A stretch of 64,000 nucleotides of DNA, taken from assembly GCA_019096065.1 (NCBI GenBank), contig JAGUCH010000001.1, positions 8,990,001 through 9,054,000 on the forward strand, in the 5' to 3' direction. Every line of letters begins with the position of its first letter. Within the stretch, counting starts at the first letter, position 1. The DNA is from Paracyclopina nana. Lineage: Eukaryota > Arthropoda > Copepoda > Cyclopoida > Cyclopettidae. The notes beneath the pieces were generated by a model, which was given only the letters and a program-made list of their open reading frames with translations, ran no database searches and was not told where the DNA came from. Shown in pieces: positions 12,953 through 63,000 of the stretch. A program made the translations under genes and the position numbers.

Positions 12953-15900
12953 CCGAGCCCGACTCCATCGGGAGTGACAATCCTGATGAAGAGGTATCTT
13001 CGGAGAGCATCGATACTTCAAAGGTAATCGAAGACGTGTCCATGGAGGTCACCCCGGCAGCAGCTGAAGAAAGCCAGCTTCCAGAGGCTCCACCTTGCCC
13101 CACTGCACCCGCTTCCGAAGACGGTATAATTTGAATTCAGAGGTCTTTTTCCACTTGGAGCTAATATAACGTCCTTTTTTAGGCTGGAGCAAAGAAGACC
13201 TGGAAAGGCTTAGACTGTGCCGTAACCGAGCTTACTACAAGGTGAATACCAAAAGAAGGCAGCATTTGCAAGCAAGCTTGAGCACCTACCTGCATAAAGA
13301 GTGGATCTCGCATTACCCCGACCGAGGCTTGAGTCCCAAAGACCTATTAAAGGTGTACCAAGATCACTTTGAGCCGGAGCAGCCTCCCAAGAGGGCCAAC
13401 CCTTGGCATTCCAGAGGCAGAGGAAAACGCTCCGTTGTCTCGCGCCCCATAAATGTACCTGTCGCAGCCAACGTCCTAGATAGCAGGCCCAAATTGGAGG
13501 ATCATTCTGATAAGCAATGGACGGATTCCATGATGGTGAATCTGATGCGCTGCAATGAAATTGTCAGCCAAAGGCAATCAGTTAGTCAACCTGGTGACAA
13601 ATTCGATTTCTCTACTGCATTGCACGAGGAGTGGAAGAAGATTTATCCCGACTCCACGTTGACGGCAAGAAATATTAAGTCTAGGCTGACTGTGTATGTC
13701 AAGACCATGGGCGAGGTGCCGCCTCCATCCAAACGAAGAAAGTTAACCAACGACATAAACACCTTTGTTTGGACACCAGAGAAGAAGGAAAAGTTGATGA
13801 CGATCCTTGACGAGGTGAAAAAGGGTCCTGATGTCAGAGACTTGGAAGAGGATGAGTTGGCTGCTGCAGTGTTTCAAGAGTGGGCTAAATGTCATCACTA
13901 TGGAACTCTACCCGACATCAAGAAAGCTCTTACTGAAATGGTTTTTAGCTCCAGAGAGGTCACTGATCATGTGGTGACCCCTCTGTCTGAACATATCATT
14001 CCTACTGAAGTGATAGATGAATTTGCACCTGAGCACGAAAGCAATCCTATCAAGACTGAACTTCAGCCAATTTGTAGCAAGAATCACTGGGTGCATTTGT
14101 TCCCTGATGGCGATGACAGCTCAGGATGCAATTTAACGGACCAACTCCTCACCATAAGGGAATCGCTTAAGATCTCCAACCAAGGCTGTGACTCTACCAA
14201 ACCAAAGAAGCCAAAAGGTAACCCTGACCTGCAATAATGCATTGAATATCTAAAATAGAATATGTTTCTTCTTCAGTTTTATCTAGCTACGTGTTAGACG
14301 AATGGAGAAAGCAATATCCAAGATCGGGAGAAACAGTCAAATCCATCGCTTTCAAATTGAGCAAGTATGACAGAGCTCCGGATAAGCTGTCACATCAGGT
14401 TGTGAAGATGAGCCCCTCTGGAAGGATCATGTGGAGCCCTCAAATGCTGCAAAAGCTGCAAGAGGCAAGGCAAGTAGCTCAAGGGATTGTTGCACGTTCC
14501 GGCCACACTCTTTCATTGAACAAAACCTGGAAGGAGGAATGGCAAAAGTCTTTCCCTGATCTCAACCTCGACTGGAGGACAGTGCTAAGCAGGTACAACT
14601 ATCATTTCGGGAGCGCAGAGGCATTGAGCACCTCAAACAAGGAGGACCAAGAGGCCATTAAGTCTGATAATAATTCGAAAATGGACTTTTTCGAAAACGG
14701 CCACTCATCAGGAAAAGTGAAAGGATTCCGCAACTGGACTCAGACTATGGAGCAAGACCTACTCATCACCAAAGCTAAAGTCTTGAAGGCTGACCCAACT
14801 TTGGATAAAGGCTCATCAGAGTTCAACAGAGCCCTTTTGAAAGAGTTCAATTCACTCTATCCCAAGTGTATGGAGAGTGCAAGGAGCCTTTATAGCAAGT
14901 TACAGTCCGTCGAAAAAGACTATGCATCTTCGCCTGCAAAAGCGATTGGACCATCATCAAGGACAAGTAGCACCGATTCAACCTCCCGCCTTCAGGGCCT
15001 AGAAATCAATCAAATTGGTAAGTTGACTCAAAGTTGGCTCTCTTTATCAGTTCATCATCAATTGTTTTCAGACCCCGTCGTAAATGGAAGTAAAGTTGAA
15101 GTTAAGCAAGAGCCACTTGAAGCTCAGCCTTTAGCGGAAAATATCAAGGCCGAAGACGAATATCCTCCTTCTGAGATTGAAGGTTTTGAGGAGTGGAACT
15201 TGCCCATGATTCGGGACTTTATTGGATGTATGGATACAGCCAGAAAAAAGTATGCAACTCTGAAAGAAAAGGACCCTGACGGCCAAGTCAAGCTTGTTCC
15301 TTTGCTCCTGGACGAGTGGAAAATTCTTCATCCTCAAACTCCGGAGACAGTCAAAACCTTCTTGACCAAGATAAAGCATCTGAAATCTCAAAAAGAGGTA
15401 ATCAAGAAGCACTTGGGTGTTTCAGGCCTCCTACCTAAAATGGATGCGGCATCTGATAATGACCAGCAAATCATCAAGCAAGAAGCAGCAGAAGCTGAAG
15501 AAGTTGCTCCAAAGTTAACGGAACCTGCCATTGAAGTGAAAAAAGAGCCATCCAGAGGGGAGCCGTTCAAATGGCATCGTGATATGATTCCTGATGTGAT
15601 AGAATCTCGCCGAAGCGCATTGCAAATCAAAGACGATGAGTTGGCTAAAGGCAATAAGGTTTCCTTTCACAGCCTATGGGCTCAAGAGTTCAAGAAAATT
15701 CACCCCACTTCAACGTTTACCAGCAACAACCTCAGTGTTCATTTTTGGACTTGGAGGAAGCAGCAAGAGAAGCAACGGAAAAAGGTCAAGGTTGAACCAA
15801 CAGAAGAGGAAACAGCAAAGCCTGTTGAAGCTCCCAGAGAAAAAGCAGTTCAGCCTATTGCTTCTGCTCTACCTAAAAAGCCACCTAACACAAGTAGTGG

Positions 15901-18900
15901 AACTTTCAAAGATGCTCTTGCTCGTGAGAAACTTATTGCCATTGGGCGAAAAGTGGAGCAAATGCTACAGGACCCAGACACTCCCAATGAACTTAAACTT
16001 AGAGGCTTCGCCAATGTTCTTCATGAAGAATGGACCAAAGAATGCCCTAATAGCCCTGAATCAAGTCGATCTTTGAATATGATGTACTCCAGGCTGCTCC
16101 GCCAGGATCAAGACCCAGAGCCAGTGATTCAGGCTACTTGGACCCCGAAACACAATGGGGTTCTTTTCGCTTGCATGGAGGAGTTCAAAGAGGCCTACGC
16201 TGCTAATCTAATGAGTGAAAGTACATTTTTCGACAATGTCGTTCGCAGCTGGCGATCCAAATTCCCCAAATCTTCAGTCTTGCATGAAACGCTCGTGACC
16301 AAAATTAGAGAGTTGGAAAGGGAGGACCAAAACAGCATTTTTGAGCCGGTCGCTGTCCCTAAGAAAGACATTCTGCCTGGAAGAAAAGCTGTCAATGGTA
16401 GTCACGACAAAGGCTTCGACATCCGGAGGCCTAATAATCGGGGTCAAATGAATTGGAACAAGCTGGCCATTCAGGATTTATTGGAGTGCCACATAGCTTC
16501 GCAAAAGCAGCTCAAGTACCTCATTGAGAATGGTGGCAAGCGAAGCAGTCCTAAATTGTCAGAGTTAGTGCATCGAAAATTCACCGAGCTTCACCCCTAC
16601 TGCAAACTGACCCCCGCCATCTTGATGACCAAATGCTACACCTACAAGAGTGCCATAGAAAAGGGAAATTTGCAAATTGAACTGAGCTCAGCCAATGTTA
16701 AGCCCGTGCCAGCTGCTCCAGAAACCTTAGCTGAAATTCCAGCATCCAGAAATAAGCGCAGCTCCAGCAGAGATCTCGTGTTCCGAACTTGGACCCAAGA
16801 AATGATTGACAACATGCTCAAAACCAGGAAAATTGCCATGCTCAAGAAAAAGAAAATGGGATCCGCCTTGGCTGGTGGGAAGAGTGACTTGGTGACAATG
16901 ACCGAAATTTGGCATGAGGAATTTCTGAAGCTCCATCCTGATTACAAGTCGAGCAAAAAGAATCTGTGGAGAAAGTACAAATGGTACAAGTTGAGGATGG
17001 CGGAAATGTCCTCCTCGGGCAACAACAGCCTCGAGATGGCCGAAGACATTGATGAGATCACCGACCAACAGCTCCAGGAGGAAAGTTTCGAGTCCGAGTC
17101 GAATCAGCAACAACAGCCACTTTTACGCATGAAAAGTATCCGTAAAGATGTGTTCAGCTATGTCAAAGCGGTTCTGCAAGAGTCGAGAATCTATTTGCCG
17201 ATGAAGCTACCCGAGGAATGCAGTCATCAAGACTCGTTTCAAGTAAGCGCCCTAATTTTCGCACCAAAATATTTTTACTCATCCTTCTCTTGTTAAATAT
17301 TAGGCTACTTCAACGATTACGACTTTTCCCAATCAGCCTGTTTCGCACCATTCTTGGATCATGCCTCAACTGACTATTCCTGTCAAGCAAGGTGAAACAG
17401 TTGATTCGTCAGTCCATCAAGGAGCGAATCAGAGTGATTCTAGCTCCATCAAGCTTCCGGGAGGAGCTACACTTGTTGCAGTCACCGATCGAAACGCTGA
17501 TCTCCTGTTGAAGCCAAAACAGCTTGAAAAGCCTCACGTTACCATAACCATTGGAGACAAGCAGCTTGAGCAGCAGCCTCCAATTCAGCCTCAAATGATG
17601 ACAGCCATTATGTCAACTCCTACTGCGCAAATTCCACTGTCGATTCCATACTTGCCGAATTTAGTGCAGCCCCCTCCCTTGCCTCAGCTTAAGCCTTACG
17701 GTCTTGATCCTAACCAGTCTGCTGCCATACCTTCCAAAATCAAAGCTAGGCTGATTGAGCTCAACATCACGGATGACATGTTCAGTGACTTAATTAAGAT
17801 GTACGACAGTGTTCGCGAGGAGTACATCCAATTGATGAAAAAAGGCTTTCTGGTCTTCTTCCCTTACCTGTTCGGATCAAGATGGCGGCAGTCAAGGCCT
17901 AACTCCATGCTGACTGGTCGCAAGTTGACAACCTTAATTGACATGTATGGCGAGGAACGGAGACGGGGAATGAGCCTGAGCCCTGAATACTTGACCAAGT
18001 CACCATGCGGCTATGAAGTGACCGAACTCCTCCTCAAGCAGATACTCGTATGCTACGCAGAGACCAAGAGACTCGTGCTGAGCGATGAGCCGAATCCAGA
18101 TGAAATCTCTCTGGACCTGGAAGGACAAGCTCGCGTTTACACTGAAATGATCAAAAGATGGAGCAAGGTTCACCCTGAGGTCAGAATGACTGCCAAGCAG
18201 ATGGTCAGCGTTCACCACATGCTCAACTTTGAGCCGGGTAAGGATGACCCCAGTCCCGAAATCGTTTGCTATTTGACAGAAACCTTACGGCTCATGGACA
18301 AAGAAGTACCCTTCATCCGTTCTCTGGATCAGTCCGAATTGGAAGATCCTGAGAATGATCTGGATTTCGACTTTGACCTGGATCAATCCTATGACGAATC
18401 GAACATGTCAATGGAGCAGATACAGGAACTTTTCCTCGCTACTCAAGGATTGAAAAGAGTCATCAAGTCCACTTGTAGAAGGCCTCGGTTGGTATCAAAG
18501 AAACGGAAACTCTTTTGGACTTCGACGAGGGTGGATGATCTGTACTTGGCCAGCTTGAAAGCCCTGCATCGATTCAGAGCTTCACGGTGTAAGCGCAATA
18601 AGTCCATCATCGATTTGATGCACAAGGAATGGCTGTACATGAACCCTGGATGCTTGGGCATAACGAAAGCTCAAGTTGCTGCAAGGTATAAGTACCAACT
18701 GCGACTTGAAAGAAAAGCCTCCAACATGCAGATAAACAAAGTCATTGCTCGTTGGAAAGTCATGTGCGACCAGTACAGAATCAGTGAAGAAAATACTGAA
18801 GTCGTTGACGAAAACGATGACTTTAAGGCTGAATTGGAAGAGGCCTCAATCGAGAAATTAGAGTGCGAGACACTAGAGTACAATGGCAACGTCGCTGGCC

Positions 18901-20117
18901 GAGATTACAACAGGGACGAAGACGTCCTCAGCTACATGAGAGATCAGCAGACTGCTTCAAAATCGCAACATGCCATAACCTGGACGCCTGATGTCATCGC
19001 TGATCTCATTGTAGCACGTCGTGAAGCGAGAAGAAGGAAGAAAGCATGGGAGACTTGGGCCATAAAAAAGTATGGTGGAGTTGGAATCGCATATAACACA
19101 CCCAATGTGACATTCTCCAAGGTGGATGACATGTTCAAGGAAGAGTGGGCAAAAAGGAGGCCGGAGTTGGCCAACCTGTCCATCTGGACCTTGGTCAGCT
19201 ATGCCCGAAAGTTTGACACCTTGAAAAAACAGCTCATTCTACAGCATAAGCAAGTTTATCGTGGTGGGGACAGACGGCGAAAGGATTACATTGAAGAACC
19301 TCTAGACTCGAAGCCTATTTTGGCGTCCTCGGTTGTTTACTTTGAGGAGTCCTCCATCCCAAAATACGACCTCGAAGAAATCGAGGGTTTGCCAGTTGGC
19401 CAAGATCTGAAAGATTTGCTGAAAAGTCGGCAGCTCGCAAAGATGCGGCAAGAAACAGAAGAGGAATCGAAGCTCAGCCTCAATTTCTTGTGGGAGGATG
19501 AGTGGAAGAAACTGCATCCGGATCACCATGATGTGACTGGACCACTACTAATGCAAAGGCTGTACTTGCTTGAAAGTCGTCCATTGGTGAGGCAGGAATT
19601 GAAGCAAGCCATTTTGAGGTCTAGCCAGAATGTCACTGTGCCAATGGAGAACGATGATGAGACCTTAAAAGTCAAGCCTCGTCATTTCGTGTTCCCCGAA
19701 GCAGAACGTGAAGGCCTCAATATTTTCTGCTATATCGACATTCCCCTACCCAAGGGGCCAAAAGAACGGTGGTATGTTGAGCTTGAGCGAGATGTTTACA
19801 ACAAGGACACCTTGTTACTGCCAATGCTGGAGGATGGGCGAGGTCCTGCTGACGAAGAGGACGAGGTGACGAAATTTGCTGCCAAAGCCTATAATCATTG
19901 GGAGCACAAATTGTCGGCTAAGCTAGAGGTTATTCCATCCGAAGCTGGTAAGTTAATTCGAGAATGATCCGAAATAGTAAGGTTTTCATAAACGATTTCC
20001 TTTTGTTTTGCAGCCGATTTCCAGTGCAAGTTTTGCCAAAAAGTCTACTCCAATTTTAACAACTTGAAGTACCACCAGGAATTGCATCATCCTCTCCTCG
20101 ACCCTGCCGCCTGTTAA
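12949..20117 (+). CDS. Giant multi-module (about 17 Myb/SANT- or MADF-like units) C2H2 zinc-finger protein
   Basis: Six exons (12949-13123, 13183-14217, 14277-15017, 15072-17242, 17304-19947, 20014-20117) join at consistent phases to give 2289 residues. An in-frame stop at 12913 lies upstream of the ATG. After an acidic N-terminus the protein is a string of units of about 65-75 residues with the pattern W(T/S)...hydrophobic helix...L...EW...P.....L....Y. They start near 13183, 13512, 13766, 14090 (degenerate), 14426, 14722, 15190, 15567, 15904, 16132, 16447, 16783, 17770 (degenerate), 18003, 18512, 18977 and 19367. The last exon carries one C2H2 finger (C-x2-C-x12-H-x3-H, 20025-20090). The fold suggests three-helix DNA- or protein-binding modules in a nuclear protein (inference). 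I do not recognise a named gene. The intron at 15018-15071 is 54 nt, frame-neutral and stop-free, so its retention would add 18 codons. Confidence 0.9.
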
Positions 20118-21059: not shown

Positions 21060-24000
21060 TTAATCCATATTGTTGCTGTTGCCATTGTGATTTTTGGGGT
21101 TGTAGGCTGTACCCCCAAGAGAGGCCGGCGTATAGAGGCTAGCAGTGAGCTTATCCTCTAGGTCAGCTAGGCCAAGGCCCGACAGCTTTCCCGTGGTGAA
21201 AGACGAGAGGTCAGTGGCAGTTGGCAAGTCGAGGGAGAGAGAGTTCACGGATGCAGAACCAGAGCCCACGTAATTGGCCAACCCAGAAACAGTCACAGGT
21301 GAACCCCTCATCCGGTTGGAACTAGTTGGCATGCAGGCCAGAAGTTCGGCAATCTTGGCGCTCAGATCCGCTACTTCCTTTTCCTTTCTATTGACTTGGT
21401 CTGCAAAGCAAAATCAATTACATTCCCGCGAAGCTCCACTCTTGGCAATATACGTACTGTCTCTAATGCTGATTTCTCTCTTCGCCTCTCCGAGCGCGGA
21501 AAACAAGTCCATCTTGAGCTTGGTCTCCTCGGACAACTTCATCTCGAGCTGTCGGTTCTTCTCCTGCACATTCTTGAGATGCCCAACCAAGACTTCGGGA
21601 TCACCGTGCATTTCTTTATACGACCTCAATTGATAAGCTTCACGTTCGGCGGCCTCGCTGATGGCGCGGGACCTGTCCAGCTCGCACCTCAAAGTCTTGA
21701 TTTCAGCCTCCAGCTTGGCAACTTCGGAGCGGTTCTGATTCTGCTGAGCGCAACGCTCGGCATTCGCAGCCTCTTTTTTGGTCTTACGCTCAGTCTCGAG
21801 CTTGATTTGGAACTCGGCCTTTTGCTTGCGCTCGTCGGCCAGTTTCCGCTCCAGACTGTTCAGTGTCGCCTTCTCGCCAGCCCGAGTGGACATGAGAGCG
21901 TTCACTCGGGACTCGAGCAAGGACTTTTCAACTTGCAAGTTGGATATCTCTGACTTGAGAGTTCGTTCTCCTAGAAATGTGGATCATGATTCTTACATGT
22001 GTGCACAATGCAGTTTTGTGGTCGCGCCTACCTGTCATATAGGACACGATCTGCTCGCGTAGGTCATTTTCCTTGTTCCTAGAAAGCTGGAGCTCCACCT
22101 TCAACCTCTTGATGTCTCCCTCTTGCTTAGAGATGACCTCATCTCTGGAGCTGGAGGTGGAAGTGGTGGTGGCCGAAGATGCAAAGGCACGACCCTTGCG
22201 GGAAGCGTCGCGGGGGGCAGCGTAGCCAGACTTGGCTGTTCGCTTGTAACCCCGATCTTCGGCATCGCCGTCATCACGCATCTTCTCCATGTAGTCCAAT
22301 TCTCCCCCAGCATTGTTATTCAAGCTGCCATTGGACAAGGGAGCACCAGCTACAAATGAAAATTAACATGGAAATGAAAGCGCATTGCACCGAGCTGAAA
22401 TTTACCAAAAGAGGCCGAGTGATTAAGATCCCCGTTGTGATGGTGCTTCCCATTGACCATCGTGGATGACACAAGTGAGCCGTTGGATGCCGAGGAGCCC
22501 GACGAGGTCGTGGTCCCTGCATCCCCGTTGAGCGTCGCCGATGACAGCGAAATCGCCGCCATCGAGGCTGTAGCTATAGAGGCCGAAGATGCTAACGAGT
22601 CCACTGCTGACAATGAAGACGATGTCAGTGAGGTGGATCCTGGAGTCGAAGGTGCTTCTGAGATTCGATCCTCCGAACTGCAAGGTTTGGGACTAGGCTG
22701 AGGATTCAGGTTGAACGCCTCCTCTCGTATTGGGCCCGGAGGAAGCGCCTCTCTCAGGAAATCGTAGTAGTACTCGTTCTCCTTCTGGACCTCTTTCTGC
22801 CTCCGAAGCCTCATGCGAAAGCCAACGTAGGACTTGAAGCCAAACCCTAGCGTGACAACTGGGTAGCCAATGCAATGGGCAGCGAACGGACGACAGAGAT
22901 CCAGGTGGAAGGGAAGATGCTTCAGGTCGAGCTGGGATTTGAACTCCATCAACCTGGTGGAAGCTTCGACGTAGACAAACAGAAACCACAGGAATACTGT
23001 TGGAACGCAAAAGCCTTTTTCTGCAAATTCGATGAGAAACCATTTTAACTACGGGGAATGCTCCACAGAATTGGAGGGAGGCTGGTTATACCTGTGTGCC
23101 AGACGTACTGGACCCAAACGTAGGTGCTGGCGGCGAAAAACAGCCAATGGACCGGGATGAACAGAAAGCAAATCATGTCGGACGTGATGGCAATGCAAAT
23201 GAAGAATACTGAGAACGCCTACAACAATTAGAGGAATGTTAGCCACTTGCGCTCGAAAAGCTCTGAGCCAGGGACTCACCAATCCTTGGTACTTGAAGGA
23301 ATCGTAGACACTCCTGAGGAAGAGCCAAAAGGGCCACAAATACTCAAAACGAAATTCCAGAAAGTGATCGGCAAGCATAACCAGATTCCATAGGAGCAGG
23401 AGTTTGATGTAAACCCAAGAGCTGAAAAAAAAAGAAAACATACGTGTATGGCAGGATTCTCTTTCTAAAGGTTGCTATAAGCACGTAATAAAATATTTTG
23501 TAAGTTTATGACGTTGGCAGAATGACTCTAATTTTTGGCTCGAGATTAGTTTTTTTAAAAATGGCAAAGCTGGCATATATCTATCTATTCCGCAAAAATT
23601 GGAAAATCGAAACTGAGCGTCAATTTTTGGCCGTTCGAAGAGAAGGTTCTCATATGCTAATTGACTATTGATTAGGAGAGAGCTAGCTAACCGTTTAAGA
23701 AGCTTGGAAGTTTCCGATGAAGGAGGCTGTTTTCTTCTAATTCTAATTTGAGGAGCCATCGCTTTCATCAAACTTTTATATCACCACCTGATGATCACAC
23801 TTTGTTGGACATGGACTAGCAAACCATCTATGCAGCTTTCTTCGTTCACCTGCTTGGAGCTTCAGTCAGCTCACTTCAGCCGGCAAGAGATGATATCACG
23901 TAGGGGATAAATGGACGCAAAAAAACTCTCTGACATCGACCTTCCTACGTGGGAGTTTTAATACTTAAAGCTGCAAGCTGCTGATTATTTTGAATTGGTT

Positions 24001-25371: not shown

Positions 25372-26049
25372 GACGTGCAAATCAGAATGGAAATTGGATA
25401 TTTCTTTCCCTCTGCTACTAGTTTGGTGGCCACTTTCAGAATTGATCAATCGAATAAAGCAACAATGACAATTGGAGGTCACGAGCGAGGCCGAGGTCGG
25501 CAAACCCATTCAAACTTGACCTTCACGTATTAGTAGGATTTCTCCACGGCGGCCTCAAGTTTCTGTGATTCCTTTTTTCACGAGAGATGGCGACCAGAAC
25601 TAACAGCAAAGCAGCAGCTGGAACTTCGACGAATGTGCGCACAGTGGCACCAGACCTACTTTTTGCAATGTAGCCGAACATCCTCCATTTTGGTCATAGT
25701 TTCCACCCAGGTAAATCAATGAGAACGTCGAGCAACCCTGTGACTTGTGTCTGCGAGGCCGAATAAGACATTGACCCTGATCGCGATCCACCGAACAAAA
25801 ACCGGGCCAGGCCAAGAACCGACCGTCACGGATCGATGTTCAATGACGCAAATTCTGAAATTATGGCTCAATTTCGCTGCACTGTCCACGCTTTTTCGTA
25901 ACAAAATGGCAGAAATTTAACTTGCCTCATTTTTCACTCGTGCCCCTTAGCGATTTGACGGAATATTTTCCTCAACTAATTCATGGTGTTTTGATTTCGC
26001 CGCATCAGCTGACGACGGCGCGGAAAAATAAAACAAATCTGTGTCAACC
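25372..26049. promoter_or_regulatory. Shared head-to-head promoter region of macoilin and HDAC8
   Basis: About 680 bp separate the two divergent start codons. The stretch must hold both 5' UTRs and both promoters. No clear TATA box is seen on either side and no other gene is visible. Confidence 0.5.
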
Positions 26050-27495
26050 ATGGAGAAGGAAAATATTCAAGTTAGGAAACTTATGCCTAAGGTCGGCCTG
26101 GTTATGGGCGAAGAGTGGCTCCAACAGTGTGATCGAATGCCTAAAATTGAGAAAAGAGTACGGTCACTTTAAGTTTTCCGTTCCCAGCCTCGCTCAAACT
26201 ATTCAAATCCGGATTCGTTTTTATTTTCAGACCTCTATGACACTGAGCCTGATCCAAAGTTACGGCTTACTTGCGGATCTTCACAAAATCAATGCGAGAA
26301 AAGCGACTCGAGAAGAGCTGGAAACCTTTCACTCAAAGGAGTACATCGATCAATGCGAGAAAACAAGGGCAACAGATGATCTGGAGAAGCTCGATATCTC
26401 AAGCAGCCAAAAGTTCGGACTGGAATATGATTGTCCGCTTGTCCCGGACATTTTGTCCTTGATCGAATGGGTTGCTGGTAAGACATATTTTAGCCCAGAA
26501 CTTTGTCTATAAGCATTTCACTTTCCAGGCGGGTCCCTTGCTGCGGCAGAATCCTTGATCAACGGAGACTGCATGTTTGCCATCAATTGGGGTGGCGGTT
26601 GGCACCATGGCCAGCGCGATGAAGCCTCCGGGTTTTGCTATGTCAACGACATTGTCCTCTCGATCCAGAAGTTGAGGCAAAAGTTTGACCGAGTTTTATA
26701 CATTGACTTGGACGTTCATCACGGTGACGGCGTGGAGAACGCATTCGCATTTTCGCCTAAAATATTCACGTTTTCTATGCACAAATACGAGGCAGGGTAC
26801 TTTCCTGGAAGTGGCAGCATCGGAGATGTAGGCCAAGGCAAAGGAAAATTTTACTCTCTTAATATTCCACTTCAGGATGGGATTGACGATGCGAGCTATA
26901 TTTACATTTTCAATAGGTATGGCGTTGCAACATCCACTCTATTATTAAGATGTAAAAAGCCAGAATCTTGTTTTCAGCCTTTTTTCAGAAATAATCTACG
27001 CATTTAAGCCACACTCCATTGTTGTCCAATGCGGAGCTGATTGTCTTGCCAACGATCCACTTGGAGGATTCAGTCTGACCCCTCGTGGAATCTCTGATTG
27101 CTTGTACAAAATCTGGTCTCAAAACTTGCCAACTTTGATTTTAGGTAACGCTTCATACTTATTTATTTTTGTGTTGATTTTTTATACATTTTACTGTTAG
27201 GTGGCGGTGGATATAACAAGGCTAATGCAGCTAGGTTTTGGACTTACTTGACAGCTCTCCTAGTTCGAGGGTCCGAGCTGCCTACAGATATTCCCGACTG
27301 TGATCCTTATTTCAAAAACTACGGCCCTTCCTTTGAGCTCACACTGTTACCTGGTAGAAGGCCGAACAAGAACTCTACAGAAAATGTTAATGATCTCCTC
27401 GAAGAAGCCTTCAGTAGGTTTCAATACACGGTTACATCATTTCTCTTTTTCTCACTGATGGATATTTTCTAGGAAACCTTGAGGAGCTTCCGTGA
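26050..27495 (+). CDS. HDAC8: Histone deacetylase 8 (class I, Zn-dependent)
   Basis: HDAC8 removes acetyl groups from lysines, notably on cohesin subunit SMC3. Six exons (26050-26157, 26231-26477, 26529-26916, 26978-27144, 27201-27413, 27473-27495) join in phase to give 381 residues, close to the 377 of the human enzyme. The ATG has a strong context (caaccATGG). Catalytic features are all present: the His pair in GGGWHHGQRDEASGFCYVND, zinc ligands in DLDVHHGDGVE, the Asp ligand in CGADCLANDP and the Tyr in GGGGYN. Like known HDAC8, it lacks the long C-terminal tail of HDAC1/2/3; HDAC8-like segments include MPKIEKRTSMTLSLIQSYGL and GYFPGSGSIGDVGQGKGKFYSLN. Confidence 0.95.
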
Positions 27496-51507: not shown

Positions 51508-51515
51508 TACAAATC

Positions 51516-51529
51516 CCCAACCAGAAATT
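51516..51529 (+). repeat. Left terminal inverted repeat of the transposon
   Basis: CCCAACCAGAAATT, preceded by TC. It is followed immediately by a subterminal direct repeat (51526-51542). Confidence 0.75.
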
Positions 51530-51542
51530 CTCTCAGTGCCAT
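51526..51542 (+). repeat. Subterminal direct repeat, left copy
   Basis: AATTCTCTCAGTGCCAT; 16 of 17 bases match 59841-59857 in the same orientation. Both copies are followed at 15-25 bp by a CTAGT/CTAGGTAGT-type block and then ATGACC. Confidence 0.7.
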
Positions 51543-52181
51543 CTAAGTTTTTACTAGGTAGTAAAATATGACCTTAGTTTTTTCATCATTTTTTAGACGT
51601 CCTGTAACGTGATAAAGTACAAGGTGAAGATCCTAAAATGTTATCAAGTTTTTTAGCAGTTTTATCATGTTCATTACATAGTAGTTTATTTCTCAAAATA
51701 ACTGCATAGAAAACTAAAGTTTTTTTATTGTTTCAAGAAGTTTAAAACTGCTCAGTGGTCAATGTACAAAAACTGCAGTAAATGCACTGAAACTTGAAAT
51801 ATGCTTTATGTTATTTTTATGCATGTACTGACATTTCTTTATATTTCAGGTTTTATTTGGCCACATTTTAAGTGGAATTAAGCCAGCCTTGTCAATGCCA
51901 CAGGAATGCGCTCACCAAAATCAATCTAAATTTATTCATAGTTTTTTCAATGTGTACCACCATAAAATGACAGAACAAAAGACAAAGAAATACACTTTAT
52001 ATTATTTGTTAATTTGATGTATTTCACAAATTGCGATGCATTTACTTCATTTACATTGTTCTCAAACATATGATCTTCACTGTAATAACATACATGACAT
52101 TTTTATATTTTTTTTGCATATTTGAGCCAGTAACATTAATTTTTCATTTCAAAAAACTTTGTTTCATGTTTGTGATCATTA

Positions 52182-52196
52182 TCACAGTTTTTTTCA
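52182..52196 (-). repeat. Internal A-run motif copy (ACTGTG type)
   Basis: tcacagtttttttca; complement matches the recurring (A)n-ACTGTGA core. It lies just downstream of the transposase stop codon. Confidence 0.6.
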
Positions 52197-52221
52197 CGTG
52201 CATTTGAAGTAATTGATACAA

Positions 52222-55200
52222 CTACGAAAAAAGAGCATCCATTGGAATTGCGATCATTAAGCGTCCATCTCTGACTGCTTTGCCAACAATCTTTCGCTTC
52301 TTCACTTCAACAATTTCAGAATCATACTTTTTGAACAGTTCGACACCAACTACACTGAAGTCAAGCTTGAACACGTCTGGATTTCGGTACTTGCCAGTTA
52401 TGATTTTCTTGCAATGATATGTATCCTTGTCTTTAATGTCAACAACCTCGAAAAATTCACGATCACTTGTGTAGACCATATTGTCTTGAGTATTAGCTCG
52501 AGTCATCTTCTTGCTAATTTTCAAGGTTCTTTCACAGTTATGGTCACGTACACCTGCAATGAACGCTTTTTGCAAGGCTTGTTTTGTGAAGCTCTTAGTA
52601 TTAGCCACAAGCACTCTCTTAATGAATCCATAAAAAGATTCAAAAGGTTCTGCTGAAATTTCACTCATGCGATGTCGTTTCCTTGTCTCACGAAGGTGTG
52701 AAAATAGGTGGAGGTTGAATGAGCATTTCTGCTTGCCAAAAACATTCTCAAACATAAAGTAGAATGTTTGCATAAGCTCACTGAGGTTGACTCTCCTGCA
52801 GATTTGACGATACATCTCATCATTGAAGAAAACAGAGCGTAGCAAGTAGATGAAGTAGTACCACACTTTTCTAAATTTTTGATTTTCCGCACCAACAAGA
52901 GCCCGTCCAAAACTCATGAACCCGCACATAGTTATTGCGAGGTATTCTGAGGATTTATAGTGAATCAACCCCTTACGCATTGATCTGGGTCGACGTGTGA
53001 ATTCTGATGGAATGCGAAGTTTCAGCCATCTTTGATCAAATTCGTACATCAGTCGCAATGTTTGTGCACTGAACTTGTCTGTTCCACACCTCCTAGGATT
53101 GATGATCTCATTTATGATTTGGCGAGCCATCCCCAAAAACAAGTTATGCATTGGCTCGATTGGAACATTTTCTATGAGGTCAAATCCATCAATTTTCAAT
53201 AGTGGAGATCGTCCTTGAATGCCGAATGTTTGAGCATCATCAGGCTTCTTTCCGTCTGCAATCTCCTTTAGTACGATCTCAACATCTCTTAGCCATTTTT
53301 GCATCGTTCGTCTCTGGTAAGCCAAAGTTCGAGGTGAAAACAACATTTTTCCTTCGTGTACCCCAACACAAAGGCAAACATCGCATGAACAAAAGCCAGC
53401 GTGTCCCTTCAAGCATTTTAGTTTGGCTCTTGCTGGAGCATCTGCAATCACATTGTTCAGCTTGAAGTTGCTCTCTTTTGCCTGCACAATGAACTCTTCA
53501 ACACATGAATTTAATGACATATTAGCACCAGTTCTGTGGACATAAATGCCAGCCAAGTAGACAATTTGACAGCCTCTAAATCTCACACAAACAAGGTCCA
53601 TTTTGTCTATTCCAGCGTGAGAAAGTGGCACCCCGTCCACAGCGAGATCATAGATTTTCTTTGTTCTCCTTGAGTGCTGTGGATACGTTCTGAGATGAAA
53701 ATCAAAGATGTCATCAATTCTTGTGCGCGTCCACTCTGACAGCTTTTCGTAACGAGATGTTGGTAACGTTTTTTCGGGGTACACTGGACCATTATGCTGA
53801 AATGTTTGATTTGTGTCTTTGTCCAGGATTTCAAATCTCATGAAGATTGTTGGCAGGTGTTCCTTGATGCGATTATAAATAGTCTTAAAGCACTTCATCT
53901 TCCTGTCAATGTTCATTGCTCTTACAAAGTTCCAAAGATCATCAGCAGCCTCGTTGGAAATGCAATGCCTTGACACAATGCTAAGAAATCTTTGGGCGCA
54001 CCTATCATTTCTTGCAAGTAAGTCATCTAAGGCATCTTCCTCCTGCTGTGCACGAATCAGCTCAGTCAAAGAAAATTTTCGAATGCTCATTGAGCTGAAA
54101 GCATTGCAGAGTGCAGTGTCATCAAACACAGCTTCTTCTGGCAGTTCATCTTCATGTTGCGAAGTCTACAAAAATATAACAATTAATTTAACATTATTTT
54201 ACAGTAAACCATGTACTTACTGATGAAGCAATAGAGATTTCTAGATCATTTCTCTCAATCAGTTCATTCGCAGGTTCATCGCCATCACTCAAATAGATGC
54301 TTCTTGTGTCCATATCATCTTCATTGACCTCTGGAAGCAGTTCATCTTGGTCACCAGACTTAGGAGCAAAGCTGCTTCTTGAACGGAGGAATAATGCAAA
54401 CTCCTCATCACTCTCTGTTTCCATTTGGTCCGTACTAGAGCTGGACGAGCTTTGCTGATCATCGTTTTCAGGCAGTTCATAGTCAAAAACCATTACTTGA
54501 GCACATTGAACATCATCATTTGTCTCATCGTTGTTTTGCAGTACACCTTGATTTAACTGTGATTCAACGTTGCTTAGTTCATCATGGATTGCCAAACTGT
54601 TTTGCCAGTTTGTGACTGGCTCTTCTGGCAATTCAGAGTCAAACTTGCTTGCCTGAGGTGGAACCCATTCTTCATCCAAATGCATTTCAAGACTGTTTCC
54701 AGCATCAACTTCAGGCACATAAAGAGCCTGTGATGCTTGTGCAAAAGCCTCGCGCCTTTTTGATTTTCCTTTCTGTGAAATAGCCTCATGATGTCTCTTT
54801 TGATACTGCTTTATGCAGTCAGTCCATCTCATGTTTGGATCATACATTTGAGGATTATCTTGAATTTGCTGTATTAAAGCGTATTCATCCTCGTAGAAGA
54901 TTGGAAAAGAGGCATCATCAATTGGCACAATGTAGAAATTGCTAGTGGTTGGATCCACAATATCCATCAATGAAATCGCTTTTGTAACAACGTCAGTTAT
55001 TGTAACGTAGTTTAAAGGTGCACGTTCAGTTTCACCTATTAATTTCTTCGCTTCAATTAGCAAGTTGGTCGCTCCTTGAGAAAGTGGAGCATTTTCATTA
55101 ATCATGAGATCTTCATTGTTTGAAATGACTCCCTTGATGCCGTTACTGACATTTTTAATGATTTCAACTTCAATCGGCACTGGATTGTCCTCAAGATAGA

Positions 55201-55336
55201 TCAAGTTGTTTGCAGCAGCTCCTAGCTTCCTTGACTTTTCACGTAAATCATTGATGAGTTGATCAAGCTCAAGTTGTTGGCGACGTCTACGCATCCGCAT
55301 AGCTGGTGTAGACATTTTCTTTTTCTTTCGAGGCAT
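52222..55336 (-). CDS. CACTA/EnSpm-type (Tnp2-like) transposase
   Basis: It should cut and join the transposon ends. Two minus-strand exons, 55336-54221 and 54165-52222, join at phase 0 over a 55-nt intron, giving 1019 residues. The N-terminus is strongly basic (MPRKKKK, MRMRRRRQQ). It is followed by an acidic region repeating ELPE-type words (SELPEEPV, YELPENDD, ELLPEVNED, DELPEEAV). The C-terminal half has the Tnp2-like core: LAVDGVPL with the first Asp, IADAPARAKLKCLKGHAGFCSCDVC with the second Asp and a Cys cluster, and DLIENVPIEPMHNLFLGMA. A DUF4218-like part follows (FNLHLFSHLRETRKRHRMSEISAEPFESFYGFIK). A minus-strand AATAAA lies at 51936-51931. Frames and splice sites are whole. Confidence 0.88.
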
Positions 55337-55703
55337 TTTTCTCTGAAATAAAAATTTGAGGTGCGTATATTATGAAAAAACTGTGAAAAAATGTCAAAAA
55401 ATTAACGTTTGTGTTGTAGTCGTTATTAACGATTTTTAACGTTACAATAATTTTTAAAATAGTATTTTTCTGACCTGCTATTGTTCACGTTTAATTTTGA
55501 GATGTTAATCGTTGTTGTTGCGTTTCAACCGGCGTTTTTGGTGTTTTTCCGTCAAATGACCTGGTAACATATATATAGCTGAGGCACGCCCGGTCAGCTG
55601 TCAGTCGCCGCTCAACCACTGAAGTGAGCGCACACGCCCGATAAATTTACTACGTGGCCCACCCAGTAAATACGTAGATTTTTCACAGTGTTTACAAAGT
55701 GCC
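55337..55703. promoter_or_regulatory. Divergent promoter of the transposon's two genes
   Basis: The 367 bp between the two start codons include TATATATA at 55570-55577 and, 31 bp on, an arthropod initiator TCAGT (55601-55605), which fits the plus-strand gene. The minus-strand side has an ACTGTG motif copy at about 55375-55392 and several AACGTT-type words near 55403-55443. A second core (tttttcacagtg) sits in the plus-strand leader near 55679. Confidence 0.65.
55375..55392 (+). repeat. Internal A-run motif copy (ACTGTG type)
   Basis: aaaaaactgtgaaaaaat, in the leader of the transposase gene. Confidence 0.65.
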
Positions 55704-58700
55704 ATGTCGAAAACACCTAGTGAATGCGGAAGTATCCGGACGAGCAAGTCAGTCTCTCCTCATGATGAAGACGGCAGAATCTACGACACGTTCATCATTG
55801 CGCAGTTAGACGATGAACCAGTGTTTTCTTTGATGAGCGCCGACACTGTCTTGGATGATGGAAAGTCCTTCAAGGATATCTTTTCTTTTGACCCATCCCA
55901 ACCAATGGATGATCTCATGCGTAGCTACAGGAAGTATGCGACCGTTGATGGCAGAGAGATACAGTTCAGTATCTTTATACGAATCGAGAAAGGTAAGATT
56001 CTTAAAAAATGCAAGTCATTTGTTTACATAGTTTTTTTAACGTTTTTTTGACGTTTACTAATCATTAACTCTTTCAGATACTCCAAACGAATTCATTTCG
56101 AAGTACATTCGTGATGCCAATGGCGAGATCAGAAAGTACAAAGGAAGGAAGCGTGCTGAAAAGTACGATGAGATGATCAAACGCTATCGAGAGAAGATGA
56201 GCAAAAACTACATTTATGTACCACGAGCCACAGAGCATGACAAGTATGTGGGAGCACCTATTGAAACTGGAAAGCATGCCACTAGATCATCAAAGACTAT
56301 TGATCCAACCACAGAAGAATCTGATGCTGCACCAGGGCCATCCAGGGAAACCCACGTTCAACCTGCCTCTGGTCATTTACTGAAAATTGCAGCGGCGAAA
56401 GCAAGAAAAGAGGTACGTTTTTTTAAAGACTACTTAACAAACACGATGTAAACACGATGTAATTTAGTTGAAAGAAAAGGGCTCAAGTCAAGTCATTGAG
56501 TCAGACAATGATGAGGAAGACTTTGAAACACAAACAAAGTCATCCAAGAGGCCGGCTAAAGAGGCATCCAAGAAGCAGACGCCAGCAAAGAAAGCAAAGA
56601 CTCCAGCAAAAGGATCTACGCCAGCTAAAGCTGCACTTTCTAGAAAGTCACCTCGAGCAGCTTCAAAGATACAGCCACTTAAAATTGTGACTGTCCCGTC
56701 TGTTCGCAAAAAGACTATTCTGCCACCTCCAAAGGATTCGCCGAGTCAAACCCGAAAGAGAGCTTTGTCACCAGAATCGGTGTCATCTTGCAGTTCACCT
56801 GAAAAACATCTTAAAATAACTGAGAAGACTTCGTCCAATGTTCGAGATGAAAACAGCAATACGCCTGATCAAGAGCCATCTGGCCCTCCTCTTGTTGACA
56901 CTACCTTTGGCGTAGCAATAAGAACACCAACTAATTTGCCATCTGCCAGCAATGAACGGCTGCTGTCAACATTTGCAGTTACGCCTGAGTCTCAAGAGGG
57001 TCAAGAACTTGAGCAGCCAACATTTCACGGCACACCAGATACAAGTCCAGGCACATCAAGAATTGGTGGAGGTTCTTTCGCCGATTTTAAGAAGTATTTG
57101 GATGAGAAGGAGAAGCGGGAAATTGAGCGAGAGCAGAAACTTAAAGTAAGTTTTTTTAACGTTTTTTTAAAGTATACCTAATTTTAATTGTGTAAAATAG
57201 GAACTGATCATTGCCGAGATTGATAAGGTGTCAAGACGACAGTACAAGATCCTTTCTCAAATGAAAGAGTTGAAGACTGAACAGGACAAGTTCAAAGAAA
57301 ATGTGACGGATCTCATCACATCTAATTCAAAGATGTACAACAAGCTCAAGTTGATTGGAAATCAGGCTGCAGAACGTAAAGGGGCGATTGCTGCAACATT
57401 GCTCAGATTTTTCCCACTTGATTTGGTTGGTGTTTGTGGAGATATTTTGCTGTCCTCGAGCTTTGTACAAAGACATCTTCCTGCACTCATCGCTCGTCAA
57501 ATTGAGTTGATTAAGAATCATGATGTCAACAAGACAATTGGCAAGGGCATCATGCATTTTCTCTTCAGCAACTATGCCCTCTCACATTTTATTATTGGGG
57601 ATACAAAGAAGTATACCTTGATATAACTGTGCAATAATTATAAATAACAATAATGTTCTGTTACATTTGCAGGAGCCTCAAGGGGTTGAAAGCCACCAAT
57701 CGTCCAATTCCAAAGGGGGTTTTGAGCAACATTATCCCTTCTGTCGTCGAAATCATGGACAAGAAAGTCACCTTGAAGGGGAAGTCGACAAAGGAGAATG
57801 TCAAACTGATTAGAGCGTCTTTTTCGGACCTTTTTGGCAACACACGCTCAACATACATATGTCAGCTAAATGACTTCTGCAAGGATATGGCTGACTTGTA
57901 CAAGGCTCTCTACCTTGGTGATAAGGTTTTCTTCGAAGCAAACAAGGTGAATATATAGTTTATGTCAAAAAAACTGTGAAAAAACGTTATTATTTTCAGT
58001 ATGTCCACGGTCCAAATCCACAGTTCTTCTCTGAAGCGGACCACAAAGAGCTGATGAAAGGACGCGACTACATAACTGATCGTCAGGAGTTGGAAGATTC
58101 AGGATTGGTTCGTAAAGAGAAAAAGAAGCAATTTCTTTCCCCAGGAGAAGCTGTCATGACGCTGAGGACTAATGTTGGCAATGATCAACTTAGTGCACGA
58201 GAAACGATAGCATTTCTCATTGACGCTGCGCGAGAGGCAGGGGAGAATTTTGAGAAGATCACCTTTGACAAGGAATGCAAAGTCAGAAATGTAATTAACA
58301 TTTTTTCACAGTTTTTTTATGGTGTACTACAGTAAAATTATGCAGGTTGAGGCAATCTACAAGACTGTGCTTGAGGAAAAGAAGCAGGAGTATGCTAAAG
58401 AGCCACAACAATGTCAAGTTCCAGTGCAGGCCTCTGAGCAATTGGCACCAGAAAAAGATGTTTTTGGAGAAGAAAGTCCACCTCAAGCGTCAACATCTAG
58501 GGCTCCAAGAGATTCAGTCAAGGCTATCATATCTCAGAGGAAATCTGATGAACATTTCCCTGACAGAAAAATGACTACAAGCTCATCCAATGACAACATG
58601 GTAATTGATACTGACCCAGAGGCAGGTGAGGAAGAAGTATTCGAGAAAAGAAAGACAAAGAAAGTCATCAAGAAAAAGGAGCGAAAACAAACGAAAAAGG

Positions 58701-59169
58701 TATGTTTTTCAGATTTACGTAAAAAAAACCATAAATTAACTGTGAAACATTTCAGCGAGATGAAGAAATTCAATCAACAACTGATGAAGAGGAGCACGAA
58801 ATGTCAGACGGGGAAACAAGCGAGGAGGGATTGGATGATGTCATCATGCAAGGAGAAAATGATTCTGACAAAGATCAAGAAGCAGATGAAGCAACATCTG
58901 CAATGGAGGAGGATGCACATCAAGGCAATGAAGACAGACCAGATGCAGATGCTGAACAATGTGATGAAAGTGCCGAGCACGCCGGCAACGAAAGTGCCGA
59001 TGAAGCATCAGAACAAGGTGAAACTGACAATAATGCCAATATAACTGCGTCAACACCTAGTAATGTCACACCTCCTGTAAGTCCCATGTTCTTATCCTAT
59101 GACTCTCTCTCCTTTATCACAAGCCTTTTTATTTTATAGGTGCAAGAAGCCGATGGATCAGCCAATTGA
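55704..59169 (+). CDS. Transposon accessory protein, unrecognised (993 residues)
   Basis: Nine exons (55704-55992, 56078-56412, 56468-57145, 57201-57610, 57673-57946, 58000-58290, 58346-58699, 58756-59076, 59140-59169) join in phase to give 993 residues. The N-terminal part is a compact charged region (RDANGEIRKYKGRKRAEKYDEMIKRY). A Lys/Pro/Ser-rich low-complexity part follows (KRPAKEASKKQTPAKKAKTPAK, AT-hook-like), then a coiled-coil-like helix and a structured central region (VTLKGKSTKENVKLIRASFS, QLNDFCKDMADLYKALYLGD, VHGPNPQFFSEADHKELMKG). The end is very acidic. By position and pairing it is analogous to the TNPA DNA-binding partner of plant CACTA elements, but I see no homology. A nuclear DNA-binding helper is the best guess. 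Confidence 0.82.
56031..56053 (+). repeat. T-run motif copy (AACGTT type) in intron 1 of the accessory gene
   Basis: gtttttttaacgttttttt followed by gacg; almost the same as the copy in intron 3. Confidence 0.65.
57150..57172 (+). repeat. T-run motif copy (AACGTT type) in intron 3 of the accessory gene
   Basis: gtttttttaacgttttttt followed by aaag, placed directly at the donor site. Confidence 0.65.
57967..57988 (+). repeat. A-run motif copy (ACTGTG type) in intron 5 of the accessory gene
   Basis: aaaaaaactgtgaaaaaacg followed by tt; 21 of 22 bases match the subterminal copy at 59792. Confidence 0.7.
58298..58320 (-). repeat. A-run motif copy (ACTGTG type) in intron 6, reverse orientation
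   Basis: acattttttcacagtttttt on the plus strand; complement is the same motif as at 57967 and 59792. Confidence 0.7.
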
Positions 59170-59253
59170 TGAGCATACAGCATTCACACTATTGAAAAGA
59201 CGTTTGGAACAATGCACCCTTTTAGGTCACCTGCTCTGCAATGAGCAAAATTA

Positions 59254-59271
59254 TTGATTGATTGATTGATT
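59254..59271. repeat. (ATTG)n microsatellite inside the transposon
   Basis: About four GATT units after the accessory gene's stop codon. Confidence 0.85.
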
Positions 59272-59791
59272 TATTATCTACTTATTCACAATATGGAAAT
59301 TTATAATGAATTATCTGAATGCCAATTATTTTTTATGCCAATCATACACAATTACAAAAAGCATGAAAAATATATAACCAAATATTTCACATTCTCTACA
59401 GTTGTTTTAGCGTTGACATTGAATTCACGTTGAAAAAATGCCCCAGTTAGCAAAGTAGTGCACATTGACAAACATCTTGGTTGTATCATCCTAGAAAAAT
59501 CTTCAACAGTCAACTGGAATGAAAAAAAACATTATTTCTTGGTTTTTGATCAATGGCACTGTGATAAATGTATATAGGTGCATTCTATGTGGCCTAATCT
59601 AGTACTTTACTAAGTAACGATACATCAACTTTGCTACATGAATTTCACATAAATCATGAAGCATATACTTCATTTGACATGCAAAAGTTCATTGCAACAT
59701 TATTACCATAATGTTTTCAAGGTACTACAGCAGTGGCACACAATTTTATTTATGCAGTAATGCATACCATAGAGTTTATTATATTTTCATT

Positions 59792-59813
59792 AAAAAAACT
59801 GTGAAAAAATGTT
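59792..59813 (+). repeat. A-run motif copy (ACTGTG type), right subterminal region
   Basis: aaaaaaactgtgaaaaaatg followed by tt, about 210 bp from the right end. Confidence 0.7.
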
Positions 59814-59840
59814 CAAGTACATGATGTGACAACGTATGAG

Positions 59841-59857
59841 AATTCTCTCAGTGCTAT
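59841..59857 (+). repeat. Subterminal direct repeat, right copy
   Basis: AATTCTCTCAGTGCTAT, in the same orientation as the left copy, about 170 bp inside the right end. Confidence 0.7.
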
Positions 59858-60011
59858 GTTGAATGTTATAGGAGTTGATTAACCTAGTAACTAATGACCG
59901 GTCCATATTTTATTAAGGTGCCACGTACGTTAATGTTACATAACCCTATAGGCAACATGGCAAAAAAACTTGATAGTGTCATGTAGATTTTTATATAAAA
60001 AAAGGACTTGA

Positions 60012-60025
60012 AATTTCTGGTTGGG
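60012..60025 (-). repeat. Right terminal inverted repeat of the transposon
   Basis: AATTTCTGGTTGGG, exact complement of the left end, followed by TC. Confidence 0.75.
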
Positions 60026-63000
60026 TCATGTCCGATTTTTTTAGAGCGGTTCAGAAAGCAACTGAGCTTGCTGACAAATGACCCTCATCATTTCGGCCAA
60101 CTACAACAACATTGAGGCTCTCAAAATATTGACATACTGAGACTGGCCCCTCTCCATCACTAGTGCAAATTGAGTGCACCAGATTCCTCAGGAATGGAGC
60201 CATCTGAAATTGTTTGCTGTGTTGTAAATCTAGCAATAATGCTACTTAATGAACGAGGATAATTTTTATAGGTCATTTTTTACAGTTAATGAGACACAAA
60301 AAACATTAGCAGCGATAATAATGTCCAGGCCAAGATTTTTTCCTGCTGCTGAATTGGCGTTGCTGATAAAATCAAAAATCTTGGTAAGCTGTAATTATTT
60401 GTGTGGGCGCGTTGTTCGGTTACGTGGTAATTTGTAACTTTGGTATATCAATATCCTTGTCATGCTTTTTGTTCAGGCAGCATGCAGTCACGACACTGAA
60501 AAGCCCCGCGAGCATGTCAGAATTATGAGCATGTATGTAGTACTACGTAGTCCCCTGCATCTAATGGTTTCCTGGTATTTTTAAAGCAACCAGGAATTTT
60601 AGCAGCCATTTATCATCTTTGGAAGCATCTTGTTTGAACTTTAGGGGCTGTGGTGGCTGGAGCAGCAGCATTACCTATTCTATGCATGGCGTGAGACGGT
60701 TGCAGGGATCAATGTCTCAATGTGTTCAACCAAGTATGGGATGAGGAACGAACGAACCAACTACTCGATCATGGCCTCTAAGAGGACAAAACTTGAGGCC
60801 TCAAGTTGCTGCTTTCTAGATTGCAGCTTTCTTTTTCAAGGATGATTTACTTTTTCAATGGACTGCTTGCATTTGCTATTCAAGGACAATGTTTCATTGT
60901 TCCCCTCTTCTTCAGTGCTGCTGTTGCGAGATCCATGCTTTTGTCAAAATGAGAAGGAGAAAGCAAAATACTAGTCCCCAAAACATTGGTAAAAGTGGAC
61001 TTGGATTTTATCCCATAGCTACTATGCCCGGAGGTTCATTGTGTCATTAGTTTAACGAGACTAGAGAGACTCATTGAGACGATGCTACATTAATTATAGC
61101 CTAGCCAGCAGTTTGGTCTGCAAGAGATCACACACTAGCTTTTTAGGCTTTTACGACAGACTTTGATCACAATTCCATGAATAAGAATGCTGTATTTATC
61201 ATCTGGTGGAATTGTTGTTTTGAATATTCTGCATTGAGTGGGCAAATAAATGACAAACTGCTGATGTAGTTTGTTACCATGATGACTATTGGTCTTCCCC
61301 AGCTCCATTTGGGGACCCCCTTGCAAAACCAATGCCAACTTGACATGGGGTGCATAATTATATGGAAGATTGATGTACAAAATTGACGTCAGGATTCCAA
61401 GGAATTTCCCCCTGCCTCTGCAAGAAATGTGAATTCTAATAATGTTCTTGACAATTCTTCGCATTCTAAATGCCATGTTAAGCCTTTTGATTACTCTTTG
61501 TTGTAAAGATGCATTGCTTTTTGCCCTCATTTTTGCGTCACACATTCTCAAGGGAGTCCTGGAGTAATTTGGAAGATTTCCCGTGTTTGGACTGACCTGA
61601 CGGCACCATTTATATGCATCTTGGGATCGAGGAGATGAAGTCACGTCACCCCGATAGAGCAGGTTGCAAAAAAAGCTTTGATGTCGTGCCTCAAAGAAAA
61701 TGATGCCAACAGATAGCAAAAACTGCAGATGATGGCCATCATATTTCATTGTAGTTAACCCGCCCACAGATGACTGACTAAAAAGCGCATCAGTCAAATC
61801 TGCCTTGCATTCATTAGGCTAAAAACTTCGCTCTTACCCGTTGGCTGCTGATTATTTTCAGTAAATGCTTTCGCCCAAACTTCGCGCTTAGTGGATTTGA
61901 CCTCTGCCTTGAACAGATTTTCGTGAGATGCCACTAGTCCATCATCATTAAGTGTAGTCTTTCATTTCCTGCTTTCTATAAGGCCACATCATGTTCTTCC
62001 TTCGTTTGCTCGTTTCCACTCATTTTGATGGCACAAAAACTGGATTTTTCAGATATTGGCCTATGATACTTGACGTTCTTTGCTCAGAGCCTGTAATAAT
62101 GTGTAATGACTTGGACTGGCAAGGGTTTTGCTGAGTCATCTGCAGACGTTACACTTTTTGGAAATCTCAATGAAAAATCAGTTTTACGAAGCACTTCTCC
62201 GCCTACTTCGCTACAATTTGTCTCTTTTTAATCAAGTTTGCGGGCACGATTTACCGATTATCCCACACTACGTACCATGCAGCTGTGCTAAGCCCAAATA
62301 AATCCCACTAGAAGTGCTTTACTACTGCCCCATGAAATTCTTATGAAATTGTTAGTGACCATTCTGCATACGACTGTATGAAGAAAACGCCATCTGACGT
62401 TTATTTCATATTCATTCACCCCGTAGCCAAATGGAGAAAGCAAGGGCTAGTTTGGGGGACTAGCGGCGAGCACTTCCCTAGCTTTTTGGCTGGACGACTA
62501 ACCTAGAAAAAGTTTCTGCCATAAATGAGGCACAAGGAATGGCAGCAGAGTTTCTGAAAACAGTACCAATCCTTTGAAGCACTATTTGAGAAATTGGGTC
62601 ATGCACAAAATGTGTCAGCTGATTGCTTATTCAAATGTGTGGCTGCCAACTAAACTAATTACAAGTAGAACAATACATTATACTTCTGTAGTAGCTAGCA
62701 GTCTTCGCCTCCCCACCATACAGCATTGATAAGAAAATCAAGATGTTCTGGCTCGGGTTTGAGGATATTGGGTATCGAATGCCTTACTGCACTGGCTGCC
62801 ATATTTCACATTGACACATTGCTGCTAATTTTAGCGATGGCCTAAGCTCTAATTGCTGCATTCAGGTACCTTTTCTTGCGTCTTTTTCCAAAGAGCCTTT
62901 TTGGCCATTTTGGGAGCTTCCACTACTAAGTGCATTCAACTCAAACAAGCACAAATTGTTTTCTGCTGTAGAATCAATCTCCTTGCCAGTCACGTTTGAG

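Follow-up and report, generated by a model that had tools for sequence, protein, structure and literature searches.

A two-gene CACTA-like transposon with CCC-starting ends and its relatives in the genome of Paracyclopina nana

The element, its ends and its long copies

The window analyzed here, a 64,000-nucleotide stretch of the Paracyclopina nana genome (contig JAGUCH010000001.1, positions 8,990,001 to 9,054,000 of the forward strand), contained a complete DNA transposon of 8,510 bp at window positions 51516-60025. The element was bounded by perfectly inverted 14-bp terminal repeats and carried two divergent genes, a putative transposase gene and a second gene, referred to as gene 2. The features are given below in window coordinates, each with its strand and the evidence on which it is based.

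51514..51515, no strand: left copy of the target-site duplication (TC); sequence, other copies carrying 2-bp duplications of other sequence
51516..51529, plus strand: left terminal inverted repeat CCCAACCAGAAATT; sequence, second copy, genome count of the 14-mer
52222..54165, minus strand: transposase exon 2, 647 amino acids (aa) plus stop, with the catalytic core; residues invariant in 21 copies
54166..54220, minus strand: transposase intron, 55 bp, GT-AG; sequence, spliced frame, diverged copies
54221..55336, minus strand: transposase exon 1, 372 aa, basic at first and acidic further on, start codon ATG at 55336-55334; alignment with diverged copies, the gaps being mostly in frame
55337..55703, no strand: spacer between the divergent genes, a probable two-way promoter, with TATATATAG at 55570-55578 before gene 2; sequence
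55704..59169, plus strand: gene 2, 993 aa, nine exons (55704-55992, 56078-56412, 56468-57145, 57201-57610, 57673-57946, 58000-58290, 58346-58699, 58756-59076, 59140-59169); spliced frame, stop codon read, homologues beside the transposase elsewhere, and fewer nonsynonymous than synonymous differences (pN < pS)
60012..60025, minus strand: right terminal inverted repeat; sequence, second copy, genome count of the 14-mer
60026..60027, no strand: right copy of the target-site duplication (TC); sequence

In the genome searched (92 Mb, 10 contigs), the exact 14-mer of the ends occurred 233 times forward and 252 times in reverse (485 in all), whereas the reversed control had 1 and 0 matches. A second copy of the element was found on the same contig, called C1 here (C1:839902-848418, minus strand, L008), with an AA duplication and with flanks that differed from those of the window copy. 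The two copies were 99.34% identical over 8,529 alignment columns (one matching flank base included), and the alignment spanned the first to the last base. Because it stopped at the element boundaries, bar that one flank base, the ends of the element were fixed. A first-pass annotation had described a complete element with perfect 14-bp inverted ends that start CCCAACC rather than CACTA, and had proposed a genome search for other copies with their ends aligned; the second copy, ending exactly at the element ends, bore this description out.

The same annotation had regarded a TC duplication as possible. The duplication proved to be real, but TC was not fixed, since the 2 bp varied among the long copies. 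A 2-bp duplication was present in all seven long copies with both flanks read (TC, AA, GA, TT, CG, CA, and AT), the CG, CA, and AT copies having been chosen because both of their ends were the exact 14-mer, and the far ends of L013 and L014 lying outside this count. The target duplication is thus 2 bp long and variable, with no obvious target sequence. The transposase had one stop in the copy at C1:600200-608892 and was incomplete in the copy at C1:1434591-1443422. The outermost AATTTCTGGTTGGG also terminated six copies (L012-L017, of which L013 and L014 were near-twins) about 470-720 bp past the transposase stop, at transposase identities of 62-72%. In more distant subfamilies (L018-L022, L024, L028, L030, and L033) the ends were TTCTGGTGGGG or TTCTAGTGGGG, and none were placed in other subfamilies, such as L023, L025, L031, L032, and L034.

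The two genes and their relatives in the genome

The spliced transposase was an open frame of 1,019 aa over two exons from the ATG at 55336, and spliced gene 2, divergent from it, was open over nine exons and 993 aa. The transposase intron retained its aligned donor in all three diverged copies compared and its aligned acceptor in one of them, and the gaps in exon 1 were multiples of three in 8 of 11, 8 of 10, and 7 of 8 cases in the three copies. For the eight introns of gene 2 in three diverged copies, one of which (L052) was without its last 248 bases, a GT start was found in 18 of 24 cases and an AG end in 20 of 24; the misses were gaps or shifts, and intron 8 had no aligned AG in any of the three. 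Relative to the window copy, the identity of these copies was 48-56% in the left, spacer, and right non-coding DNA, 39-72% in the introns, and 52-64% in gene-2 exons 1-8.

In the transposase core, the comparison of the window copy with four others gave a pN of 0.19-0.23 and a pS of 0.78-0.81. Gene-2 exons 1 and 4 gave a pN of 0.24-0.32 and a pS of 0.71-0.80 in three copies, and exon 3 was looser (0.34-0.39 and 0.67-0.75). Because pN was well below pS in the transposase core and in exons 1, 3, and 4 of gene 2, the sequences indicate that both genes are maintained as proteins under purifying selection. This selection and the recurrence of the intron positions in diverged copies support all eleven exons. 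The two divergent, heavily spliced genes of the first-pass annotation therefore stood; it had called eleven exons in one element unusual, but up to eleven have been reported for maize CACTA transposases (PMC4158355).

To define the catalytic core, 21 transposases were aligned. They came from 30 loci (L011-L040), with the near-twins L014, L019, and L022 and the broken, partial, or second-copy loci L017, L020, L026, L027, L029, and L031 omitted. Residues D173, D177, D242, C261, C264, H486, H490, and E509 were invariant in all 21. The first catalytic aspartate would be either D173 or D177. Together with the D-D-E residues, the CxxC at 261-264 and the Hx3H at 486-490 formed the signature of the CMC (CACTA-Mirage-Chapaev) group, so that the core is CACTA-like, as first proposed. 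A C(2)C/H(3-4)H signature is common to EnSpm/CACTA, Mirage, Chapaev, Transib, Plavaka, and others (PMC12730594), and features that define the CMC group are also given in PMC4592977. Two narrower text patterns, written for the H and E motifs, were found in 20 and 16 of the 21 transposases. These motifs suggest a DDE fold. Sequence searches of the PDB with the transposase profile and with gene-2 exon 4 brought up no meaningful match, and a scan of viral_contigs gave no transposase relatives or reference CMC proteins.

The gene 2 protein contained low-complexity charged regions and matched no Pfam family above the cut-off, the one match below it being Phi29 scaffolding (E-value 0.0024). A BEN domain had been guessed by eye, and no such Pfam match was found at E-values up to 10; in the literature, the combination of CACTA and BEN brought up a single listed paper, which concerns lateral transfer in Lepidoptera.

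The protein search with the transposase, in which scores were computed for 68 of 236 candidates, listed 85 matches, which were counted as 67 loci. Among the matches listed, 46 of 85 had a single uninterrupted frame over at least 585 of the 647 aa (hand count). A tree of 21 loci contained well-supported groups, in which the window copy fell with L012, L013, L015, and L016, and L018 came next. Gene 2 was located 5' of the transposase and on the other strand at no fewer than 15 of the 67 listed loci: all 13 nearest ones (the window and second copies included) and 2 of the 54 others (C4:359 kb and C3:7784 kb). A sixteenth pair was at C1:11289669, outside the listed loci, where the transposase was found in the fetched surroundings. 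Distant gene-2 matches with no listed transposase nearby were also seen at C1:16849284, C7:5922790, and C3:3544930, and these are either further families or stray copies.

The remainder of the window contained host genes, namely Macoilin (22353-23048, minus strand), a histone deacetylase (25859-27004, plus strand), and a protein kinase (8898-9698, plus strand). The presence of Macoilin, which we take to be an animal marker gene, agreed with the initial assignment of the element to an animal. A search for SL1 RNA as a pointer to the host had no match, and neither did its control. Two consecutive long frames on the plus strand (14246-17293 and 17304-19964), open from stop to stop for 1,016 and 887 aa, had no Pfam match above the cut-off.

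Short copies, proposed mechanism and alternative explanations

The listed positions of the exact 14-mer, all on C1, included 24 pairs with a spacing of 285 bp, of which 20 were fetched. The 2-bp duplication was exact in 19 of these 20 short copies and absent from one (L063), and the copies were 89-100% alike (mean 94%). Beyond the ends, one such copy shared with the window element only short stretches, the longest of 38-39 bp at 82%. Forty near-full-length matches of a 285-bp copy (278-285 bp) were spread over nine contigs at 95-100% identity; these were the best 40 of 411 candidates, and the 95% floor results from this selection. The simplest reading is that the 285-bp copies moved recently. 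One example of the family lies at C1:678766-679050, and some copies were 98-100% identical across contigs. Other listed 14-mer ends paired at 0.8-1.4 kb.

Inside the element, the 9-mer ACTGTGAAA occurred seven times on either strand (starts at window 52530, 55380, 55681, 57973, 58304, 58739, and 59798) versus 0.24 expected, six of the seven lying in introns, the spacer, or the right end. It was found 1, 1, and 0 times in three diverged copies, which held other repeated words of their own, and twice in 24.5 kb of other window DNA (0.36 expected). When repeated 8-mers between the transposase stop and the nearer end were counted in 11 copies, two (L018 and L030) were above all 200 shuffles, the window copy equaled the highest shuffle, and the other eight were within the shuffles. 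Plant CACTA elements carry subterminal repeats that are bound by the accessory protein. ACTGTGAAA might serve as a binding site within the element, or it might be a private repeat with no function.

The best overall explanation, with a probability of about 0.86, is a two-gene cut-and-paste element with a helper protein and 285-bp non-autonomous copies. The 1,019-aa transposase would bind the 14-bp ends, excise the element through its D-D-E core, and insert it at sites of no fixed sequence through a cut staggered by 2 bp; the family signature, together with the duplications, suggests both the cut-and-paste mode and the 2-bp stagger. The 993-aa gene-2 protein would most likely be a helper that joins the transposase in its complex or acts at sites within the element, like TNPA in plant CACTA. 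Its pairing with the transposase points to this role, as does the analogy with the protein of open reading frame 2 of plant CACTA, which in specific families assists both excision and transposition (PMC4158355). As the ends are identical, the same machinery probably mobilizes the 285-bp copies, and perhaps also the 0.8-1.4 kb elements, known as end pairs only.

Several results weighed against this explanation or the family placement that goes with it. The transposase of the second copy was broken: 18 small clusters of changes separated it from the window copy, 16 in the transposase exons (frame-breaking insertions or deletions and substitutions) and 2 in gene 2, and the clusters, which corresponded to window 52807-54412, are either an assembly error or real local scars. 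Joining the flanks of the window copy revealed no empty site, as the joined sequence matched only the two flanks themselves in the genome. At 52 of the 67 listed transposase loci, gene 2 went undetected in a search that scored 46 of 558 candidates. The single-sequence fold model of transposase exon 2 had a confidence score (pLDDT) of 33 and was unusable. The Pfam family Transposase_21 (PF02992) was found in none of the 21 transposases at E-values up to 1 and had no match in the whole genome, where control genomes were silent too. The Tnp2-type transposase of the first-pass annotation was consequently not recovered as such, although the CMC signature was present. Box I and the strict box A of TRC elements, as printed by DeMarco et al., occurred in none of the 21, and a relaxed box A (D-x-[LM]-H-x3-L-G) in seven.

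TRC elements are animal elements related to CACTA, with ends starting CCC and 2-bp duplications (DeMarco et al. 2006, PMC1636069). Because the 2006 description of TRC already covered animal elements with CCC ends, 2-bp duplications, and a CACTA-like core, the element is of a known kind and not a new one, and the suggestion of a kind not yet described did not hold; Spongebob (PMC4298943) and the two-gene fungal Sly1-1 (PMC4592977) are similar as well. In a literature search on the end sequence, none of the papers listed (5 of 241) contained CCCAACC, and given this scope the lineage is not called undescribed. The terminal inverted repeats with a duplication within the 2-5 bp of the CMC group (2 bp in all seven long copies and in 19 of the 20 short ones) and the CCC-starting ends with 2-bp duplications, as in TRC, place the element, as judged from its sequence, in the CMC group and, in part, near TRC. 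The element probably works like TRC and probably is TRC. It was not filed as a proven member because the Transposase_21 domain, which DeMarco et al. reported in TRC elements (PMC1636069), was tested for and not found.

Among the alternatives, a TRC or animal EnSpm element in the strict sense has a fairly good chance of being correct, in which case the Pfam miss would reflect only a model that we assume to be built mostly from plants. Besides the ends and duplications, the CxxC in 21 of 21 and [DEK]-x-M-H-x3-L-[GC] in 21 of 21 transposases, set beside the relaxed box A of TRC, argue for this, whereas the missing Transposase_21 domain, box I, and strict box A argue against it. Mirage, known from nematodes, or else a distinct CMC-type lineage that has an accessory gene of its own is a tentative alternative: it would share the CMC signature and account for the lack of a Pfam match in either protein above the cut-off and of the strict TRC motifs, but the CCC start and 2-bp duplication fit TRC well. 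Somewhat more doubtful is a separate CMC-type animal lineage that is also undescribed, defined by the CCC start, the 2-bp duplication, a transposase that the Transposase_21 model does not reach, and a co-moving divergent partner of a new family, with several diverged, largely intact subfamilies in one 92-Mb genome.

It is unlikely that the element is dead and its intact frames are leftovers. The only other close copy does have a broken transposase, but both window genes are intact, the left, spacer, and right non-coding DNA (1,926 bases) was identical in the two copies, one flank base aside, and near-identical short copies lie on several contigs. The element thus looks recently mobile, in line with the initial view that it is possibly still mobile, and it may be active at present. 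Least likely is that gene 2 is a captured host gene outside the transposition machinery: its charged low-complexity regions, the lack of a Pfam family, and the many transposase loci at which it was not detected would suit a passenger, but it stands divergent beside all 13 nearest listed transposases and three distant ones and is under purifying selection, and such long retention would hardly be expected of a passenger.

Relationship to known elements

The elements described here contribute a divergent partner gene that is retained across the near family, many intact diverged lineages within a single genome, and a transposase missed by the standard model. In the limited literature covered, mostly passages, no animal CACTA relative was found that unites exact ends with an intact transposase and partner gene and with young non-autonomous copies. 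With this set, the function of the second protein becomes open to a cell assay, and a CACTA-type tool for use in animals could result. The set further shows that the family is able to persist as many intact, diverged lineages within one compact genome.

Sly1-1 of Neurospora, a fungal CMC element, resembles the window element in having a transposase and a divergent gene of unknown function (PMC4592977); the likeness is one of gene arrangement. Plant CACTA (En-Spm) elements share the CMC catalytic signature, the combination of an accessory protein with the transposase, and, in maize, up to eleven exons. Unlike the window element, with its CCCAACC ends and 2-bp duplication, they have CACTA ends and a 3-bp duplication (PMC4158355), and the Spm products come from one transcription unit (PMC1636069), whereas the genes of the window element are divergent. 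Spongebob (EnSpm-4N1_HM) of Hydra has CCCAGCCAACATTGAC ends of the form CCCA(G/A)CCA, a 2-bp duplication, and non-autonomous copies; its exact transposase was not found, owing to stops or frameshifts (PMC4298943), whereas the genes were intact in many copies here. The window element differs from the TRC elements in the undetected Transposase_21 domain and the unmatched strict boxes I and A, and from SmTRC1 of Schistosoma, with its alternatively spliced products, in its divergent second gene. It shares with SmTRC1 and the Aedes and Tribolium elements the CCC ends, the 2-bp duplication, the animal host, the spliced genes, the CxxC, the DG motif, and the related D/E-x-M-H-x3-L-G, and the Aedes element, with its CCCAGTCAAC ends, is of similar size at 9.2 kb (PMC1636069).

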